This document shows positions 4,749 to 31,877 of a DNA stretch of 64,000 bases, in pieces. Origin of the DNA: an uncultured Pelagibacteraceae bacterium (GTDB lineage Bacteria > Pseudomonadota > Alphaproteobacteria > Pelagibacterales > Pelagibacteraceae). The stretch is from contig CACITU010000001.1 in NCBI GenBank assembly GCA_902589725.1, forward strand, positions 1 through 64,000, read 5' to 3'. Under the pieces are notes generated by a model. The model had not been told where the DNA came from. It saw only the letters and a program-made list of their open reading frames with translations, and made no database searches. Position numbers and translations under genes: made by a program. Numbering within the stretch: position 1 is the stretch's first letter; each line of letters begins with the position of its first letter.

Positions 4749-5374
4749 TATAATTTTATAAAATTATCGATTATCTTAAGCCCAGTTTTATCACTCTTTT
4801 CAGGATGAAATTGAGTTCCAAAAATATTATCCTTTTCAACAGAACAAGCAATTTTTGATGAATAATCTGTTGTTGCAGAAATTACACTTTTATCTTCTGG
4901 AATAAATTCATAACTGTGTACAAAATACATATGTGAATTATTTTGAATATCATTGTAAATTTTACTATCCTTGACAATATTAATTTGGTTCCAACCAATG
5001 TGAGGAAGTTTGTATTTTCCATTTTGGTTGTCTATTTTTGATACTTTGCCTGATATCCAACCAAGACCTTTAGTTTCGGTTTCCTCGTAGCCAATATCTG
5101 CAAACATTTGAAGACCAACGCAAATTCCAAGAAGTGGTTTTTTATTATTTATCGCAAATTCACTTAATGCATCAACTAAACCACTGATATTGTTAAGAGC
5201 ATCAACACAACTCTTAAACGAACCCTGTCCTGGTAATACTACTTTATCTGAAGATTTAATCTTATTTAAATCTGAAGTTACCTCTATATTTACCTTGTCT
5301 TTCGCAACTTCCTCAAAGGAGTTTATTACCGAGCTTATATTGCCCGAATTATAATCAACAATTGTGACGTTCAT
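4748..5374 (-). CDS. hisH: Imidazole glycerol phosphate synthase, glutamine amidotransferase HisH
   Basis: Class I glutaminase that feeds ammonia to HisF. The 208-residue protein has the nucleophile Cys in LLGICVGLQMF and the His-Glu pair in GTQFHPEKS near the C-terminus, and starts MNVTIVDYNSGNISSV as usual. It lies five bases after hisB, and its stop overlaps the start of the small lipoprotein gene. Confidence 0.97.
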   Translation of the reverse strand: MNVTIVDYNSGNISSVINSFEEVAKDKVNIEVTSDLNKIKSSDKVVLPGQGSFKSCVDALNNISGLVDALSEFAINNKKPLLGICVGLQMFADIGYEETETKGLGWISGKVSKIDNQNGKYKLPHIGWNQINIVKDSKIYNDIQNNSHMYFVHSYEFIPEDKSVISATTDYSSKIACSVEKDNIFGTQFHPEKSDKTGLKIIDNFIKL

Positions 5375-5379
5375 TAAAC

Positions 5380-5970
5380 TTATAATGAGCCTTTAGTGGA
5401 TGGAATACTTTTCTTATTTCTTGGATCCATCTCTAATGCAACTCTTAATGATCTTGCTAATGCCTTATAACAAGATTCAATTATATGGTGGCTATTATCA
5501 CCATAAATATTTTCAACGTGCATAGTAATACCTGCAGATTGAGAGAAGGCTTGGAACCATTCTTTAAATAGTTCTGTATCCATCTCTCCAAGTTTCTCTA
5601 CTTTCAATTTTACTTTCCAAATCAGATAAGGTCTGTTTGAAACATCAATAGCAACCCTTGTTAATGTTTCATCCATCGGAATTACTGTATGAGCATATCT
5701 TTTAATTCCTACGAATTTTTTAGCAGCTTTCTTTAAAGCTTCACCTATTGCAATACCTGTGTCTTCAGTAGTGTGGTGAAGATCAATATGAGTATCCCCT
5801 TTTGCTTTAACTTTTAAATCAATTAATGAGTGCTTTGATAATTGCTCTAGCATGTGATTTAAAAAACCTATACCAGTGTCAATTTGGTACTTACCTTTAC
5901 CATCAATATTTACTTCAACATTGATGCTAGTTTCTTTTGTTTTTCGAGATACTTTTCCTTTTCTAGCCAT
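5380..5970 (-). CDS. hisB: Imidazoleglycerol-phosphate dehydratase HisB
   Basis: Dehydrates imidazole glycerol phosphate in histidine synthesis. The 196-residue, single-function form contains the manganese-binding motifs [30 protein letters not shown] and [19 protein letters not shown]. It is the first gene of the leftward his operon. About 90 bases separate it from the divergent hslV; I see no leader peptide, T-box or attenuator there. Confidence 0.97.
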
Positions 5971-12781: not shown

Positions 12782-13361
12782 AATTTTTCAAATATTCCTT
12801 AATTTTGTCAACAGGAAGGCCCATAATTGTATTTTCGTCCCCTTCTATTTTAGAAAATAAATTTTTTCCCTCACCCTCAACTTGATAAACATTATAAGCA
12901 TATAAGGTTTCGTCGGATATTTTTGCCAAATAATTCTTTAACTCATTTTCAGAAAAATTTTTCATAGTAAGTTTAGCTTTATCAGTATGATTCCAGATCA
13001 TATTGCCATTTTTAGAAATACAAACAGAACTTATTAAGTGATGAACTTTTCCATTTAACTTTCTCAAAATAGTCATTGCCTCATCTCTATTTTCTGGTTT
13101 CGATATTAATTTTCCCTCTAAATCTATAACACTATCAGCGCCTAAGACTATTTGATCAATTCTCCTTGAGCTAACTTTATTTGCTTTAAGTTCAGCTAAA
13201 TTTTTCGAGATAATTTCGGGTGTTGCTTTTTCTTTGATTAAGCTTTCTTTTACTATATCTTCATCAACATTAGAATGTTCTACTATACTATCAACATTGT
13301 TTTTATCTAATATATCTTTTCTAACTTTACTTTTAGAGGCAAGGATTATTTTATTTAGCAT
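12774..13361 (-). CDS. maf: Maf-family nucleoside triphosphate pyrophosphatase
   Basis: Hydrolyses non-canonical or modified NTPs to monophosphates. The 195-residue protein shows the N-terminal ILASKSKVRKDILD, LGADSVIDLEGKLISKP with the catalytic Asp, and the late EGEGKNLFSKIEGDENTIMGLPVD. The exact substrate class cannot be read from the sequence. It overlaps the PPDK regulator gene by 11 bases. Confidence 0.95.
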   Translation of the reverse strand: MLNKIILASKSKVRKDILDKNNVDSIVEHSNVDEDIVKESLIKEKATPEIISKNLAELKANKVSSRRIDQIVLGADSVIDLEGKLISKPENRDEAMTILRKLNGKVHHLISSVCISKNGNMIWNHTDKAKLTMKNFSENELKNYLAKISDETLYAYNVYQVEGEGKNLFSKIEGDENTIMGLPVDKIKEYLKNYE

Positions 13362-14178
13362 TATTTGAGTAAATTTCGTGGATTTTAATTATGGAAGCTG
13401 CGGTTTCTTCAACTGATTTCCTGGTAACATCTATAAGAGGCCATTTATATTTTTGAAATGTTTTTTTAGCATCTAACACTTCTTTTTGAATATTTTCTAA
13501 ATTAGTATATTTAAAGTTTTCATTTTCTCTTAAAGAGCTCATCCTATTTTTCCTTAAATCGGCCAATCTTTCAGGCTCTGTACTTAACCCAACAACACAT
13601 GTGAGTTGAGGATTCTTTTTTAATTGCTCAGGTAGAGAATTTTCATTTACTAAAGGAATATTTGATGTTTTAAAACCCTTGTTTGCAAGATAAATAGATG
13701 TCGGGGTCTTGCTTGTTCTGCTCACTCCCACAAGAATAATGTCCGATTGATCAACTTCGTTTATTAAATTTCCATCATCATGATTCATGGTAAATTGAAT
13801 CGCTTCAATTCTATCATAATATTCATCATTAAGAATATGCTGTCCACTAGGTTCATGTGTTGCTTTTTGATTAAGGATTTTAGAAAAATTTAAAATCAGG
13901 TTTCCTAAAACACCAAAACACGGAATTTTTTTATTTGCACTCACATTAGCCAAGTATTTAGCTAAATTATTATCTACTATAGTGTACAAAATTATAGAAT
14001 TTTTATTTTTTTCTGCTTCTTCTAAAATTTTTAATATTTGGTTTTCCGTTCTAGTAAAGGAGTATGAATGAACTTTATATTCAATGTTTAAAAATTGTGC
14101 CTTTAAAGCTAAAAATATTCTATCTAGGGTTTCACCGGTGGAATCAGATATTAAATATATTTTATATGTATTAGTCAT
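13351..14178 (-). CDS. Pyruvate, phosphate dikinase (or PEP synthase) regulatory protein
   Basis: Bifunctional kinase/phosphorylase family (formerly DUF299) that controls PPDK or PEP synthase by threonine phosphorylation. The 275-residue protein has the N-terminal YLISDSTGETLDR and the nucleotide loop GVSRTSKT at residues 151-158. Neither target gene is in the window. It is the first gene left of the predicted origin; its homologue flanks the origin in Caulobacter and Rickettsia. The 267-base spacer to hemE holds its promoter, if any. Confidence 0.93.
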   Translation of the reverse strand: MTNTYKIYLISDSTGETLDRIFLALKAQFLNIEYKVHSYSFTRTENQILKILEEAEKNKNSIILYTIVDNNLAKYLANVSANKKIPCFGVLGNLILNFSKILNQKATHEPSGQHILNDEYYDRIEAIQFTMNHDDGNLINEVDQSDIILVGVSRTSKTPTSIYLANKGFKTSNIPLVNENSLPEQLKKNPQLTCVVGLSTEPERLADLRKNRMSSLRENENFKYTNLENIQKEVLDAKKTFQKYKWPLIDVTRKSVEETAASIIKIHEIYSNNAK

Positions 14179-14262
14179 GAATAAATTGTTATTAAATTTG
14201 TATTATTTTAATAAATTTTAACAATTTTATATTTTTCAAATTAAGCTTGTAAAACCTACTAT

Positions 14263-14271
14263 TTATCCACA
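14263..14271 (+). promoter_or_regulatory. DnaA box, perfect consensus
   Basis: TTATCCACA, the high-affinity DnaA 9-mer, inside the non-coding region left of hemE. It is the only exact copy I noticed in this spacer. Confidence 0.75.
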
Positions 14272-14348
14272 ATAATAATAAATAGTCTGAAACAATCCAC
14301 AAAAATTAACATTATTTAAAAAGCTTCATTTTAAACAATTTTACTTAC

Positions 14349-14363
14349 TTAAGATGTTATTAA
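14349..14363. promoter_or_regulatory. CtrA-like site TTAA-N7-TTAA
   Basis: TTAA at 14349-14352 and again at 14360-14363 with seven bases between, the CtrA recognition pattern that represses the Caulobacter origin. In DNA this AT-rich, one chance copy in a 267-base spacer is quite possible. Confidence 0.3.
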
Positions 14364-14445
14364 ACTGTTAATATTATGTTTATAAAAATTAATCACCTTT
14401 AATCACAGGATATATTACAACTACAATAATTAAAAAAGATTATTT

Positions 14446-15447
14446 ATGAAACCATTACATAAAGTGATAATTGAAAAAAATTGCTCATTTAATCCTATAT
14501 GGATTATGAGACAAGCAGGAAGATACTTGCCTGAATTTAGAGAAATTAGAAAAAAAAATCCTAATTTTATAAATTTATGTCTAAATTATGATTTGTCATC
14601 AGAAATAACTTTACAACCTTTAAAAAGATTTAATTTAGATGCCGCAATTATATTTTCGGATATTTTGATGTTGCCCTATGGACTGGGACAAAAAGTAGAA
14701 TTCGAAAAAAATTTTGGTCCGAAGTTAGGAGAATTAGATTTAAATAAAATTTCTAAAATTGATGAAGTCGATTTTGTTGAAAAAATCCATCCAATTTATA
14801 AGGCAATTAAAAAAGTTAGCTTAGATCCAAGCCTAGATAATAAAAATATAATTGGTTTTGTTGGTGCCCCATGGACATTACTGGTATATATGATTAATCA
14901 ACAATCACCTAAAAAGAAATTAAAAGAAAATTTTTTTAAAGATGAATATTTAATAAATAGGATTTTACTGATTATTGAAAAATTTCTAAAGTTTCATATC
15001 AAGAATCAAATTGATAATGGTGCGAATGTTATCCAAATTTTTGATAGTTGGGCAGGTTTATTAGAAGAGAAAGATTTACCAAATTATGTTTACACACCTA
15101 CTTTAAATTTAGTTAATTATATTAAGTCTTTAAAAATACCTGTTATATGTTTCCCAAGGGAAATAAAAAACTATAAAGAGTTCTGTGATATTGTTAAACC
15201 TGATGCTATTAGTATTGATTATAATGTTGATCCTAAAAAGATACTCAAGGATGTTCAAATACCCATACAAGGTGGATTAGATCCTAAAATTCTTCTAAGT
15301 GATTATAAAAATTTAAAAAAAGAAGCATCTAAATATTTAGATATTTTCAAAGATCATCCATATATATTTAATCTTGGGCATGGTATCTTGCCCGAAACCA
15401 ATCCAGAAATGGTTGAAAATTTAATAAAGATAGTAAAAAACTACTAA
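14446..15447 (+). CDS. hemE: Uroporphyrinogen decarboxylase HemE
   Basis: Converts uroporphyrinogen III to coproporphyrinogen III. The 333-residue protein has the signature PIWIMRQAGRYLPEFREIR near residue 17, the IIFSDILMLPYGLG segment with the catalytic Asp, and GFVGAPWTLLVYMI. It is the first gene right of the predicted origin and overlaps hemH as TAATG, so the haem genes are co-transcribed. Confidence 0.97.
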   Translation: MKPLHKVIIEKNCSFNPIWIMRQAGRYLPEFREIRKKNPNFINLCLNYDLSSEITLQPLKRFNLDAAIIFSDILMLPYGLGQKVEFEKNFGPKLGELDLNKISKIDEVDFVEKIHPIYKAIKKVSLDPSLDNKNIIGFVGAPWTLLVYMINQQSPKKKLKENFFKDEYLINRILLIIEKFLKFHIKNQIDNGANVIQIFDSWAGLLEEKDLPNYVYTPTLNLVNYIKSLKIPVICFPREIKNYKEFCDIVKPDAISIDYNVDPKKILKDVQIPIQGGLDPKILLSDYKNLKKEASKYLDIFKDHPYIFNLGHGILPETNPEMVENLIKIVKNY

Positions 15448-21599: not shown

Positions 21600-22243
21600 T
21601 GGATCAAGAAATTTTAAATTCTTATTCTAGAATCAATCACTTAAATGTTTCACGTGAAACATTTTTTGACTTTGAAAACTATATATCTATGATTCTTGAA
21701 AAAAATAAAAAAATAAACATTATTAGCCAAAAAACAGCATCTAAAAAAGCTATAATTGAGCGTCATATTATTGATTCTGCACAAATTATTGATTTTGTTG
21801 ACTTAAATAGCAAAACATCTATTGATATTGGCTCCGGAGGGGGGATGCCAGGGATAATTGTAGCAATTATACTAAAAAATATGAAAAATAATATGAATGT
21901 GCACCTTTATGAAAAAAGCTATCATAAAAGCCATTTTTTAAAGGAAGTTTCGAAAAAGTTGAATTTAAATACAAAAGTTTTTCAAAAAAATATTTTTGAG
22001 ATAAAAAATATAGAAACAGGAACAATTATGTCTAGAGCATTCAAACCAATGCCAGTTGTTTTAGATTTAGTATATGAAAATTTTTCAAAATATAAAAATT
22101 TAATTTTTTTTATGGGGAAGAGTGGAAAAAAAATTTTTGAAAATTCTAAAAAAAATTGGGAATTAGATTACACAGAAAAAAAAAGTTTAACAAATGCAGA
22201 CTCGTTTTTAATTAATGTAAAAAAAATTAATAGAAAAAAATAA
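21599..22243 (+). CDS. rsmG: 16S rRNA (guanine-527 N7) methyltransferase RsmG (GidB)
   Basis: SAM-dependent methylation of G527 in 16S rRNA. The 214-residue protein contains the SAM loop SIDIGSGGGMPGIIVA and a preceding HIIDSAQ, and MSRAFKPMPVV later. The N-terminal residues NVSRETF are encoded by a perfect parS site (21646-21661), as in many bacteria. The gene lies one base before parA. Confidence 0.95.
   Translation: MDQEILNSYSRINHLNVSRETFFDFENYISMILEKNKKINIISQKTASKKAIIERHIIDSAQIIDFVDLNSKTSIDIGSGGGMPGIIVAIILKNMKNNMNVHLYEKSYHKSHFLKEVSKKLNLNTKVFQKNIFEIKNIETGTIMSRAFKPMPVVLDLVYENFSKYKNLIFFMGKSGKKIFENSKKNWELDYTEKKSLTNADSFLINVKKINRKK
21646..21661. promoter_or_regulatory. parS: parS centromere site (perfect 16-mer)
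   Basis: TGTTTCACGTGAAACA, the exact consensus ParB-binding palindrome; flanking AAA and TTT extend the symmetry to 22 bases (21643-21664). It lies inside the 5' end of rsmG, about 1.4 kb before parB and 7.2 kb from the predicted origin. Confidence 0.95.
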
Positions 22244-22244
22244 A

Positions 22245-23039
22245 ATGCAAATTATTTCGGTCATAAATCAGAAGGGTGGGGTCGGCAAAACTACAACGGT
22301 GATAAACCTTGCAGCAGGATTAACTCAACTCAACAAAAAGATTTTAGTAATTGACCTTGACCCACAAGGAAATGCAACCACAGGTCTAGGTTTATCTAAT
22401 TTGGATAACTCAAGCGATACAATTTATGGTGTGTTGAATGGAACCAAAAATATTGATGTGGTAATAAAAAAAACGAAGCTCGAAAATTTAGATATCATTA
22501 CATCTAATGTAGACTTATCTGGACTAGAGGTGGAGACAGCAGGGGATAGTAATAGGGCCTTTATATTAAAGACAAAATTAGCCGCGTATTTAAACAATTC
22601 TAGAGGCTCATACGATTATGTTTTAATAGACTGCCCTCCCTCATTAAGTCTTCTAACGGTAATGGCGTTAGTATGTTCTAATTCATTATTAGTGCCTCTT
22701 CAAACAGAATTTTTTGCTTTGGAAGGAGTAACCCAGCTCATGAAGACCATTGAAAGAATAAAAGTAAGTTTAAATCCAGATTTAAAAATAAGAGGCATAT
22801 TGTTAACAATGTATGACAAAAGAAATAAGCTTTCATCACAGGTAGAGAAAGAAGCTAGAGATTATTTTAGAGAAAAAGTCTATTCAACTGTGATTCCCAG
22901 AAATGTCAGATTGTCAGAAGCCCCATCTCACGGAATGCCAGTTTTAATCTATGATAAGTCTTGCCCTGGTAGTAAGTCATATTTTAGTTTTACAGATGAG
23001 TTTATCAGTCAAGAAGCAACAATAGGAAGCGCAGCGTAA
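22245..23039 (+). CDS. parA: Chromosome partitioning ATPase ParA
   Basis: Deviant-Walker ATPase that moves ParB-parS complexes after replication. The 264-residue protein starts with ISVINQKGGVGKTTTVINLA (deviant Walker A KGGVGKTT), then VIDLDPQGNATTG, and YDYVLIDCPPSLSLL as Walker B. The short N-terminus without an HTH is typical of chromosomal ParA/Soj. It overlaps parB as TAATG. Confidence 0.98.
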   Translation: MQIISVINQKGGVGKTTTVINLAAGLTQLNKKILVIDLDPQGNATTGLGLSNLDNSSDTIYGVLNGTKNIDVVIKKTKLENLDIITSNVDLSGLEVETAGDSNRAFILKTKLAAYLNNSRGSYDYVLIDCPPSLSLLTVMALVCSNSLLVPLQTEFFALEGVTQLMKTIERIKVSLNPDLKIRGILLTMYDKRNKLSSQVEKEARDYFREKVYSTVIPRNVRLSEAPSHGMPVLIYDKSCPGSKSYFSFTDEFISQEATIGSAA

Positions 23040-23881
23040 TGGAAAAAATTAAAAAAGGATTAGGTCGTGGTTTATCTTCACTAATTGGTGAAGTTAACGT
23101 AGAGCCTCATAAAAATCAAATATCAATCAGCGATCTGGTTCCTAACAAATATCAACCAAGAAGAAATTTTGATAAGTCTAATTTAGAAGATTTGACAAAC
23201 TCAATCAAAGAAAGAGGAATGATACAGCCAATTATAGTTAGACAATCAAATGATGATAAAACGAAATTTGAAATAATAGCCGGTGAGAGAAGATGGCTTG
23301 CAGCACAAAAGGCAGGTCTTCATAATGTTCCTGTGGTAGTCACTGAGGCTGATGATCTTAAATCTTTAGAATTTGCAATTGTTGAAAATGTTCAAAGGCA
23401 TGATTTAAATCCACTTGAAGAAGCACAAGGATACAAAAAACTAATTGATGAATTTTCCTACGATCAAGAAAAAGTCTCTAAATTTATAGGTAAAAGTAGA
23501 AGCTATATTGCAAACTCACTAAGAATTTTAACTTTGCCAGATGATGTTATTAAACTAATAGAATCTCAGCATATAACAGCGGGACACGCAAAAATTTTAG
23601 TAGGTTTGGATAATGCTAGTTTTGTGGCAAATAAAATTGTTGAGAAAAAACTTTCAGTTAGGCAGGCCGAAACATTTGTTCAGTTATTTAAAAAGAAACG
23701 AAAAAAATCAAAAATTTCAAAAGATTCAAATATTATTGCACTTGAATTGTCAATTTCTAATAAAATTGGTTTGAATGTCGACATACAGAATAATAAAAGA
23801 AATAAGGGTAAGATCTCTTTTGAATATAAAGACTTAGATCAGTTAAACAAAATAATCGATATAATTAAGAATAATTATTAG
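23039..23881 (+). CDS. parB: Chromosome partitioning protein ParB
   Basis: CTP-dependent clamp that loads at parS. The 280-residue protein opens with KKGLGRGLSSLIG (ParA-stimulating segment), then the ParB/Srx domain with PNKYQPRRNFD and the CTP motif IAGERRWLAAQ near residue 82, ENVQRHDLNPLEEAQGY, the HTH FIGKSRSYIANSLRIL and a C-terminal dimer domain. A parS site lies upstream in rsmG. Confidence 0.98.
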   Translation: MEKIKKGLGRGLSSLIGEVNVEPHKNQISISDLVPNKYQPRRNFDKSNLEDLTNSIKERGMIQPIIVRQSNDDKTKFEIIAGERRWLAAQKAGLHNVPVVVTEADDLKSLEFAIVENVQRHDLNPLEEAQGYKKLIDEFSYDQEKVSKFIGKSRSYIANSLRILTLPDDVIKLIESQHITAGHAKILVGLDNASFVANKIVEKKLSVRQAETFVQLFKKKRKKSKISKDSNIIALELSISNKIGLNVDIQNNKRNKGKISFEYKDLDQLNKIIDIIKNNY

Positions 23882-23884
23882 AGT

Positions 23885-24859
23885 TTATATTGATTTATCT
23901 AAAATGAAATCAGTAACTAAGTTTACAGAGTTGTTAAGATTTTTTTTTACAATAAGTTCTATCTCAAACAATTCATAAATTAGTTTTTTTATTTTTTCTG
24001 GTTTCCATTTATAAATTTGTTGTTTTATAATTTCTTTATCTTTCCAAAAGATTGGTGGTTTTGCTGATGAAATTGTTGTTTCTATATTTTTACTATTCTC
24101 AAATTCAGTACATAGTTTTAAGATTCTTTTAGATTTGTTTAAAAAAGTTCTTATTATTAAAATACAGTCTTCGCTTGTTAAAATATTTTCATTTAAAATA
24201 TTAAGAGTTTTTTTTTGATTTTTAGCTAGGCAATTGTCTATAAGTTCTGAGATACTATGATTTTCTGACAAATTAATTAATTTCATTAAGTCGTTGAAAG
24301 TAATTTCCTTTTTATTTTTACTAAAATGTTCAATTTTTTTTAACTCATTTTCAAGAAACTCTCTATCACCATTACATTTATTTATGATGAAATTAATATT
24401 CTGTTGTGAAATTAAAATTTTTTTTTCTTTAAAAAAGTTTAAAGTAAGCTGAGCAAGCGTTTGATTGTTATCTGGAAACACAGCTATACAAATATATTTT
24501 TTACTTTTTTCAAAAAAGCCTCTTAATTTTGATTTTTTATCTAAATTTTCAGAATTGATTATAATTATCAAATCTTCTATTTTTTTCTCAGAAATTTCCT
24601 CAATAATTTTAAATATTTTATCTGTTCCTCTTTTTATTAATATTATTTTTTCGTTTTCGAAAAGAGATTTTGTTATTGTATTTTCTACAAAGCTATTTGA
24701 ATTTTCTAAAATTTCTCTTTCATCATATGAAGAAATTTCTTTTTTATTTTTTAACAACTTGTTTATTATTTGTTTTTTTAAGCCCTCATTTTTACCGTAA
24801 AAAAGAAAAAAATTATTATTTGGTTTTAAGTTATCAGTATTATACGACTTAATTATCAT
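23885..24859 (-). CDS. holA: DNA polymerase III delta subunit HolA
   Basis: Clamp-loader subunit that opens the beta clamp. The 324-residue protein is divergent: the N-terminus NNNFFLFYGKNEGLKKQIIN, a central EDLIIIINSENLDKKSKLRGFFEK and CNGDREFLENELKKIEHFS are characteristic. The call is supported by position next to lptE and leuS, a common order. It overlaps lptE by 11 bases and ends three bases after the convergent parB. Confidence 0.9.
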   Translation of the reverse strand: MIIKSYNTDNLKPNNNFFLFYGKNEGLKKQIINKLLKNKKEISSYDEREILENSNSFVENTITKSLFENEKIILIKRGTDKIFKIIEEISEKKIEDLIIIINSENLDKKSKLRGFFEKSKKYICIAVFPDNNQTLAQLTLNFFKEKKILISQQNINFIINKCNGDREFLENELKKIEHFSKNKKEITFNDLMKLINLSENHSISELIDNCLAKNQKKTLNILNENILTSEDCILIIRTFLNKSKRILKLCTEFENSKNIETTISSAKPPIFWKDKEIIKQQIYKWKPEKIKKLIYELFEIELIVKKNLNNSVNLVTDFILDKSI

Positions 24860-30814: not shown

Positions 30815-31305
30815 TAAATTTTTATTTTAGAATTTTTTTTAATTAATTTCAGCATAATTAAAAAATCTTTTTCCTTTAAAGCAACACATCCAGCTGTAGG
30901 TTTATAATTTTTTGTTAGGTGAATAAAAATACAACTACCTAGTCCAATAATGGGTTTTTTGTAATTGTACTTAATTGGAATTAGAAAATCGTACTTGTAG
31001 TCTTTTCTTTTCAATTTTTCATGTTTAATTTTTTTTTTAATTTTAATAAGTTTGTTATATTTTTTAGGATAACGAATATCATCACACCAACCCATATTTT
31101 TATTAATTTTAATACATTTAAGTAATGTCAATGGTTTTTGTTTTCGATCTTTCCTAAAATAAAGATTTTCAAGTTCAAATGTACCTTTGGGTGTTTTTTT
31201 ATCTCCTTCTTTTTTTTTGAAAGTGGATCCTTTTTTTCCGATACAACACCTAAATTTAAATTCATCAATCTGAAGAGTGTGTTTATTTTTTATTAAAATT
31301 GTCAT
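30811..31305 (-). CDS. L,D-transpeptidase (YkuD) domain protein
   Basis: Predicted L,D-transpeptidase of 164 residues. The catalytic region is GLGSCIFIHL (His129) with TAGCVAL (Cys140), and KGSTFKKKEGDKKTPKGTFEL matches the family's GxxxxxTPxGxF. There is no signal peptide or membrane segment, which is unusual for a periplasmic peptidoglycan enzyme but is seen in the YkuD group annotated as cytoplasmic in some genomes. Its start overlaps the divergent regulator gene. Confidence 0.85.
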   Translation of the reverse strand: MTILIKNKHTLQIDEFKFRCCIGKKGSTFKKKEGDKKTPKGTFELENLYFRKDRKQKPLTLLKCIKINKNMGWCDDIRYPKKYNKLIKIKKKIKHEKLKRKDYKYDFLIPIKYNYKKPIIGLGSCIFIHLTKNYKPTAGCVALKEKDFLIMLKLIKKNSKIKIY

Positions 31306-31877
31306 ATTCTCTTTTTGTGATTACTCAGAATTTAATAATTTTCAAGTTTAATGCATTATACCGTATCTTTGAAGAACTTGATTTAGATTTAAATTTTAAG
31401 ATAACGTTTGTAGATAATCAAAATTCTTTAAATGAAATATTAAAAAATTTAAATAATCATTTAATTATATCAAATAAAAAATACACAGACATCGACAATC
31501 AATATGTATTAGAAAATACACCAATTAATATTTTTAATTTAGTCGAAAAGCTTAATATTGAATTTTTAAAATTACAATTTAATAACCAATCTGAAGTTAA
31601 AGTAAAAAATTACACCATAGATTTAAATTCAAGAGAGATGTTAGCAAATAATACTAGACTTAAATTGACTGAAAAAGAAATTAATACAATCACTTATTTA
31701 TCTAAATCAAACAAACCTGTCAGTATTGAAGAGTTGCAAGAAAAAGTATGGAGTTACCAATCTGATATGGAAACACATACTGTTGAGACTCATATTTATC
31801 GATTAAGAAAGAAAATTTTGAATGCTTTTAAAGATAATGAATTCATAATCAGCAAAAAAAATGGTTATCAAATCTAA
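31299..31877 (+). CDS. OmpR-type winged-helix DNA-binding protein without clear receiver
   Basis: A 192-residue protein whose C-terminal third is an OmpR/PhoB winged helix: NYTIDLNSREMLANNTRLKL, LTEKEINTITYLSK, VWSYQSDMETHTVETHIYRL and a final GYQI. The first 90 residues are about the size of a shrunken receiver (LIISNKKYTDIDNQYVLENT) but I see no phosphorylation Asp pattern, so phosphorylation-independent action is likely. The start is TTG (31299), or GTG at 31317; the first overlaps the transpeptidase start by seven bases. Confidence 0.8.
   Translation: MSYSLFVITQNLIIFKFNALYRIFEELDLDLNFKITFVDNQNSLNEILKNLNNHLIISNKKYTDIDNQYVLENTPINIFNLVEKLNIEFLKLQFNNQSEVKVKNYTIDLNSREMLANNTRLKLTEKEINTITYLSKSNKPVSIEELQEKVWSYQSDMETHTVETHIYRLRKKILNAFKDNEFIISKKNGYQI

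Follow-up and report, generated by a model that had tools for sequence, protein, structure and literature searches.

Comparative sequence analysis identifies, with high confidence, the AT-rich intergenic spacer at positions 14179–14445 as the putative replication origin (oriC) of a Pelagibacter (SAR11) genome. The spacer lies within a 64,000-nucleotide stretch, which in its entirety is referred to here as the window, and the genome from which it comes is represented by an 85%-complete draft of 1.20 Mb (39 contigs). The assignment agrees with the original prediction that this spacer is oriC and is supported by gene order, a parS site, GC skew as sampled in four congeners, and the conserved spacer itself. 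The origin is of an ordinary kind, with a specific, conserved, and testable architecture. Taken as a whole, the best explanation, to which we assign a probability of roughly 0.87, is a Pelagibacter-type oriC with a series of sub-consensus DnaA boxes, in which an array would lead to an inverted box (box f), from there to DnaA-trio-like repeats, and then to opening of the duplex. No description of a SAR11 oriC was found in the literature searched, which consisted of open-licence papers.

Genomic setting of the spacer

The candidate oriC is 267 nt long and is bounded on the left by a PF03618 kinase/pyrophosphorylase gene of the COG1806 type (PPDK regulator; 13351–14178, minus strand; named by Pfam/NCBIfam) and on the right by hemE (14446–15447, plus strand; TIGR01464 above cut-off), so that both genes point away from it. 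The spacer contains 16.5% G+C as compared to 29.0% for the window (83.5% vs 71.0% A+T), and a nearly GC-free stretch at 14180–14239 contains only 4 G+C in 60, a value reached by 0.2% of all 60-base segments in the 64 kb, the spacer's own included. The non-coding AT-rich character and length of the spacer, the diverging genes, the near-GC-free stretch, and the placement of the two DnaA boxes discussed below were all part of the original prediction and were all confirmed. Leftward from the spacer, Pfam/NCBIfam matches identify the PPDK regulator, Maf, shikimate dehydrogenase (presumably aroE), CoaE, and an RNase_T exonuclease, which we take to be of the dnaQ type. The rightward order is hemE, ferrochelatase, UPF0093 (presumably hemJ), Rho, MnmE, MnmG, RsmG (99.0 bits vs a cut-off of 99.5), a ParA-type ATPase, and ParB.

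The arrangement is conserved throughout the genus. The PF03618 gene diverges from hemE across a spacer of 261–292 nt in all 70 loci compared (the window genome and 69 congeners), with hemE identities in the aligned pieces that reach down to 58%. These 70 spacers were taken from 84 genomes with a hemE match, the window genome included; the 14 left out were partial hits and some lower-ranking matches. The 70 genomes include many close kin, with 15 representatives that are <75% identical. A second set of close relatives, which overlaps the first, was formed from the best 80 of 170 matches (81–88% hemE identity), 78 of which had enough upstream sequence. Among 20 loci fetched from other genera, the PF03618 gene is beside hemE in 13 of the 15 that belong to the same family, and no PF03618 match is seen in the ~1.9 kb upstream of hemE in two genomes of one sister genus (L194, L195). 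The same search of ~1.9 kb in the second family gave 0/5 loci with a match (L209–L213).

PMC1914354 places both the Caulobacter origin, which was identified by experiment, and that of R. prowazekii between hemE and a COG1806 gene; the precedent that had been drawn from Caulobacter and Rickettsia, in which hemE faces an RP001-type gene, is in print. The same paper notes that hemE-type origins do not have to show every feature. Membership of the spacer in this class is based here on its flanking genes, its A+T content, and skew. GC skew had been suggested as a check on the origin. The window genome is a 39-contig draft, and skew was sampled in four of the seven one-contig genomes listed for the genus, with 20 pieces of 20 kb each covering 28–31% of each chromosome and candidate origins placed on a 10-kb grid; the values are raw and include gene-strand bias. 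In each of the four congeners, mean G–C is above zero over the right half and below zero over the left, and the sampled skew points to a shift at the hemE site, which ranks 1 of 144 (G082), 3 of 135 (G012), 1 of 131 (G111), and 3 of 138 (G115) grid positions. Two grid positions outscore hemE in G012, and likewise in G115. Block shuffles reached the hemE score in 0, 0, 1, and 0 per 100 trials, respectively. The fitted arms are 677/761 kb in G082, 661/682 kb in G012, and 774/605 kb in G115, and are uneven in G111 (973/336 kb).

The partition locus provides a further landmark. A perfect palindromic parS site (TGTTNCACGTGNAACA) is located at 21646–21661, inside the rsmG/gidB gene and 7.2 kb from the spacer, and the other eight parS-like places in the draft genome all carry 2 mismatches. 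It is accompanied by parAB: the ParA-type partition ATPase (22245–23039, plus strand) falls below the equivalog cut-offs and is therefore named at the family level, and ParB (23039–23881, plus strand) scores above the TIGR00180 cut-off. In Caulobacter, parS lies within 8 kb of the origin (PMC4468827, excerpt). Directly past this origin-side cluster, holA (DNA polymerase III delta, 23885–24859) is convergent to parB.

DnaA boxes of the spacer

Two boxes had been noted in the spacer, a perfect TTATCCACA at 14263–14271 (box b, plus strand), which is the only exact copy in the 64 kb, and a near box, CAATCCACA, at 14293–14301 (plus strand), which is kept in 70/78 close relatives (best 80 of 170). 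Single boxes of this kind are unremarkable against chance. The window contains 17 copies of TTATCCACA with up to 1 mismatch vs 21.3 expected, and the 1.2 Mb draft contains 8 exact copies, with the backwards pattern occurring 9 times; it is as a set that the boxes exceed chance. The perfect sequence is also private to the window genome among the genomes examined. A conserved DnaA box had been expected in related genomes, and here the expectation separates into two parts: the perfect TTATCCACA is lost at the box b site (0/78 close relatives; best 80 of 170), and the site itself is kept as a box word, being TTATTAACA in 66/78 of the same set. This corrects which sequence matters and leaves the origin unrefuted. 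Exact TTATCCACA was accordingly rejected as a conserved element; it is found in 2/70 spacers, one of which is the window genome's own.

The conserved signal emerges with a wider box class, TTATNMACA, combined with register, and the box cluster appears only in this way. The class occurs 3.14 times per spacer vs 0.20 in dinucleotide shuffles (largest shuffle mean 0.33), which is a ~16-fold difference. None of the 70 spacers lacks it, and the spacer of the window genome has two exact copies. The 220 boxes found comprise 85 TTATTAACA, 55 TTATTCACA, 49 TTATAAACA, and 2 TTATCCACA, among others, and 217 of them fall in a few registers, which were chosen after seeing the boxes. These registers include spacer base 9 on the minus strand (37/70 spacers) and spacer base 85 on the plus strand (33/70), the latter being the position of box b, and a plus-strand box ends 38–44 nt before hemE in at least 50/70. 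Box a (14187–14195, minus strand; TGTTATTAA as read on the plus strand) occupies the base 9 register, where 37/70 spacers carry TGTKNATAA; its score is 7.4. The consensus given in the excerpt of PMC1914354, TTATNCACA, is present at 1.0 per spacer vs 0.03 in shuffles, is missing from 13/70 spacers, and occurs as a single copy in the spacer of the window genome. The original prediction of an origin with very few DnaA boxes is not supported by these data: the spacer contains about seven sub-consensus boxes, most of them in the genus-wide register. The impression that boxes are scarce stems from taking the E. coli consensus as the yardstick, and most of the conserved sites are sub-consensus boxes absent from the original prediction. 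An E. coli box scan, it should be cautioned, finds only 2/70 of these spacers.

To locate the spacer by its boxes, a box profile was trained on the spacers of the 69 relatives, with the window genome's own left out. The profile ranks the spacer first of 6374 window positions with a score of 45.8, as compared to a mean of 11.2 and a mirror-profile maximum of 38.1. In G082, G012, and G111 the hemE spacer is likewise the top place within the parts sampled; the spacers of the first two (L009, L015) contributed to the training set, and those of G111 and G115 did not. In the sampled parts of G115 the hemE spacer is not top by profile (43.9 vs 45.9 at ~285301). The place in question is a three-box cluster (L238, ~5301–5600, corresponding to ~285301 of the G115 contig) that stands slightly above the hemE spacer in both box scans. 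Exact box density was rejected as a locator in the window genome, in which TTATNMACA occurs 206 times in total vs 248 for the backwards control; other close box pairs are present among the 100 of these 206 places that were listed.

A phased array, box f, and trio-like repeats

The right part of the spacer contains three minus-strand boxes spaced 11 bp apart, followed by an inverted box. Array boxes 1 (TGTTATTAA, 14355–14363), 2 (TGTTAATAT, 14366–14374), and 3 (TGTTTATAA, 14377–14385) lie 44, 33, and 22 bp, respectively, before box f, which is on the plus strand at 14399–14407, next to the predicted opening region, and reads TTAATCACA in the window genome. Box f is TTATTCACA in 42/70 spacers and in 75/78 close relatives (best 80 of 170). 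Across the 70 spacers, minus-strand boxes are found 22, 33, and 44 bp upstream of box f in 32, 39, and 43 cases, and 115 of the 129 scored minus-strand boxes share one common 11-bp phase. The phase holds for 21 of 27 boxes in the 15 representatives that are <75% identical, whereas shuffling their upstream segments gives a mean of 0.43 in-phase boxes and a maximum of 4 in 300 shuffles. Outside the genus, a box located 22 bp before an ACA-ended site, which is then followed by 4 nt and CTA, is seen in 6/13 other-genus spacers (L198–L203). One more (L204) comes within one base of this pattern, and the same scan gave nothing in the other six. Separately, box b is perfect in the window genome while its box f is missing one matching base that 75/78 close relatives (best 80 of 170) retain; an exchange of strength between these two origin sites is possible.

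These data bear on how far the boxes are tuned. A reading that is compatible with the best explanation, and that we take seriously at somewhat under even odds, is that the spacer is oriC but that its boxes are untuned, the TTATTAACA-type words being ordinary boxes degraded under AT mutation pressure in a register that is largely inherited. Such erosion would fit the 29% G+C of the window and the CC carried by box b of the window genome, and inheritance of the register would fit the close kinship of many of the 70 genomes. Both are harder to reconcile with a phase that is kept in the 15 divergent representatives, with a 22-bp spacing that recurs in the 6/13 other-genus spacers, and with the different bases retained at one position by the close relatives (best 80 of 170), in which box f keeps C6 (TTATTCACA, 75/78) and box b keeps A6 (TTATTAACA, 66/78).

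Past box f, a 4-nt gap (14408–14411) leads to DnaA-trio-like repeats at 14412–14423, which read ATA TTA CAA CTA on the plus strand, with 3/4 fitting NTN; the trio strand is the complement. The spacing matches that of DnaA-trios, which have a conserved middle A, a gap of about 4, and at least three repeats (PMC8287927), and the polarity matches that in H. pylori, with 5'-CTA-3' on the box strand (PMC8235120). Genus-wide, T is found at offsets 6, 9, 12, and 15 past box f in 89, 71, 69, and 97% of spacers, respectively, and in at most 29% at the remaining offsets from 5 to 17. The phase breaks beyond offset 17, with T in 29% at offset 18 and in 66% at the out-of-phase offset 20. In the 15 representatives, T occupies 46/60 in-phase positions vs 12/120 out of phase, a result reached by 0/2000 shuffles; the offsets were picked after viewing the table for the 70 spacers. 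This phase test was used in place of plain run length, which is not convincing as trio evidence (3.51 vs 3.03, with a largest shuffle mean of 3.54, and 2 in the window genome). By the BUS definition, in which a DnaA box with no more than 2 mismatches is followed after 0–16 nt by three or more NAN trios, the repeats of the window genome give a longest run of 2, set against a strong phase signal across the genus.

The segment from box f to the hemE start codon (14408–14445) is the predicted first-opened region (DUE). The spacer could instead be an oriC that opens at 14180–14239, where the G+C content is lowest, with the block near hemE (box f and the repeats) acting mainly as hemE promoter or leader. 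The end of this block, ~40 nt before the hemE start, is indeed a place for promoter elements. Yet an in-phase T at a fixed 4 nt from an inverted box and an 11-bp array would not be expected of a promoter, and the left part of the spacer has box a but is without such an array; we judge this arrangement unlikely.

Proposed initiation by DnaA and its possible regulation

The dnaA gene is ~61 kb to the right of the spacer, and a second ORF, which we take to be dnaN, overlaps its end. An ordinary divergent promoter whose AT-rich words mimic DnaA boxes, with the origin elsewhere, such as beside dnaA, would accommodate this distance, the AT-rich nature of the boxes, their lack of overall excess in the window genome, and the slightly higher box score of another place in G115, but it is highly improbable given the ~16-fold box count over shuffles, the helical register, the sampled skew turn, and the nearby parS. 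The DnaA protein scores above the TIGR00362 cut-off, and its PRQ and RDHTT stretches align with those of the solved DnaA 8btg. The residues in these stretches presumably contact the box. Since a standard DnaA with both stretches is kept, box recognition looks conventional from the protein sequence.

Candidate regulators were also considered. Four OmpR-type genes were found in the 85%-complete draft, and all fall short of the NCBIfam cut-off for CtrA (best 114.5 vs 350). This absence is provisional: part of the genome is missing from the draft, and the CtrA model is a narrow one whose name points to Rhodobacterales, such that a divergent CtrA could be missed. One short ORF (31299–31877) has an OmpR-class output-domain match in its C-terminal half only, without a receiver-domain match. 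The spacing TTAA-N7-TTAA is present in 31/70 spacers (mean 0.63; 1 in the window genome), which is no commoner than the N5 control (0.66) and somewhat above N6 (0.47) and N8 (0.31); CtrA-type sites show no clear enrichment, and, with no CtrA gene named, control by CtrA was provisionally set aside. Such CtrA sites are not found in all hemE-type origins (PMC1914354, excerpt). The IHF site WATCAN5WTR occurs in 11/70 spacers and 0 times in the spacer of the window genome, and three HU/IHF-type genes are present. The draft also carries a GcrA-family gene, which scores above cut-off, and a CcrM-like methylase (574.7 bits vs a cut-off of 830). GANTC, the CcrM site, is rare in the 70 spacers (L003–L072), at 0.04 per spacer and in 3/70.

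In the Pelagibacter-type oriC that we favor, we infer DnaA binding, the order of assembly, and the site of opening. DnaA, encoded ~61 kb away, would bind the series of sub-consensus boxes, with boxes a and b acting as anchors at a fixed distance from the left end. The three same-strand boxes 11 bp apart may serve as an oligomer-guiding array that places three DnaA molecules on one face of the helix. Inverted box f, 22 bp past the last array box, would then hand the DnaA filament over the 4-nt gap to the trios, and the filament on the complementary-strand trios would open the AT-rich 38 bp that precede hemE. ParAB and parS, 7 kb rightward, would subsequently segregate the new origins.

This scheme combines elements of several known systems. 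The spacer resembles Caulobacter Cori and the predicted R. prowazekii origin in its hemE-COG1806 position and AT richness (PMC1914354, excerpt), and Cori in having DnaA boxes weaker than consensus and a parS within 8 kb (PMC1914354 and PMC4468827, excerpts). It differs in length, with 267 nt as compared to >400 bp for both (PMC1914354, excerpt), and from Cori in that no CtrA gene is named and no clear TTAA-N7-TTAA excess is seen, and in its box class, which is TTATNMACA and not the TGATCCACA G-boxes. The weak Caulobacter boxes are functional, in that affinity-raising mutations can decrease replication (PMC4468827, excerpt). A box, a gap of 4, and complementary-strand repeats with a conserved middle base are likewise found in the basal unwinding system of B. 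subtilis (PMC8287927, excerpt). Unlike in that system, one sub-consensus box and not a pair with a consensus box stands beside the trios, and the ~4 repeats are not all perfect. Neighbouring array sites in E. coli oriC are 2 bp apart, as they are in the SAR11 array. E. coli oriC also uses weak-box arrays to guide DnaA oligomers (PMC4285127, excerpt), but most of the SAR11 clade is without strong anchors of the TTATCCACA type, and one array is seen here, not two opposed. H. pylori oriC2 has a TCATTCACA-class box and CTA-type trios past its DUE-side box (PMC8235120 and PMC4285127, excerpts); H. pylori has both oriC1 and oriC2, as compared to the single spacer here.

A broader but tentative proposal, which may well not hold, is that SAR11 origins are held sub-consensus by selection. 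An invariant 11-bp array of weak boxes would lead to an inverted box and trios without a strong anchor or a CtrA brake, and the DnaA level alone would set initiation in an ocean bacterium that grows slowly. On this view, the window genome would be a natural variant in which one anchor is perfect and the opening-side box is weakened.

SAR11 bacteria are among the most abundant in the ocean, and metagenomic estimates of their growth rest on origin-to-terminus coverage gradients. One SAR11 study fixed the terminus from coverage and described a V-shaped coverage profile having one origin; its main text mentions neither oriC nor dnaA (PMC9589681). An origin defined by sequence would give such growth estimates a fixed anchor. 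The conserved box geometry also makes the spacer a compact natural system in which the roles of box affinity, helical phase, and trios are separately testable.
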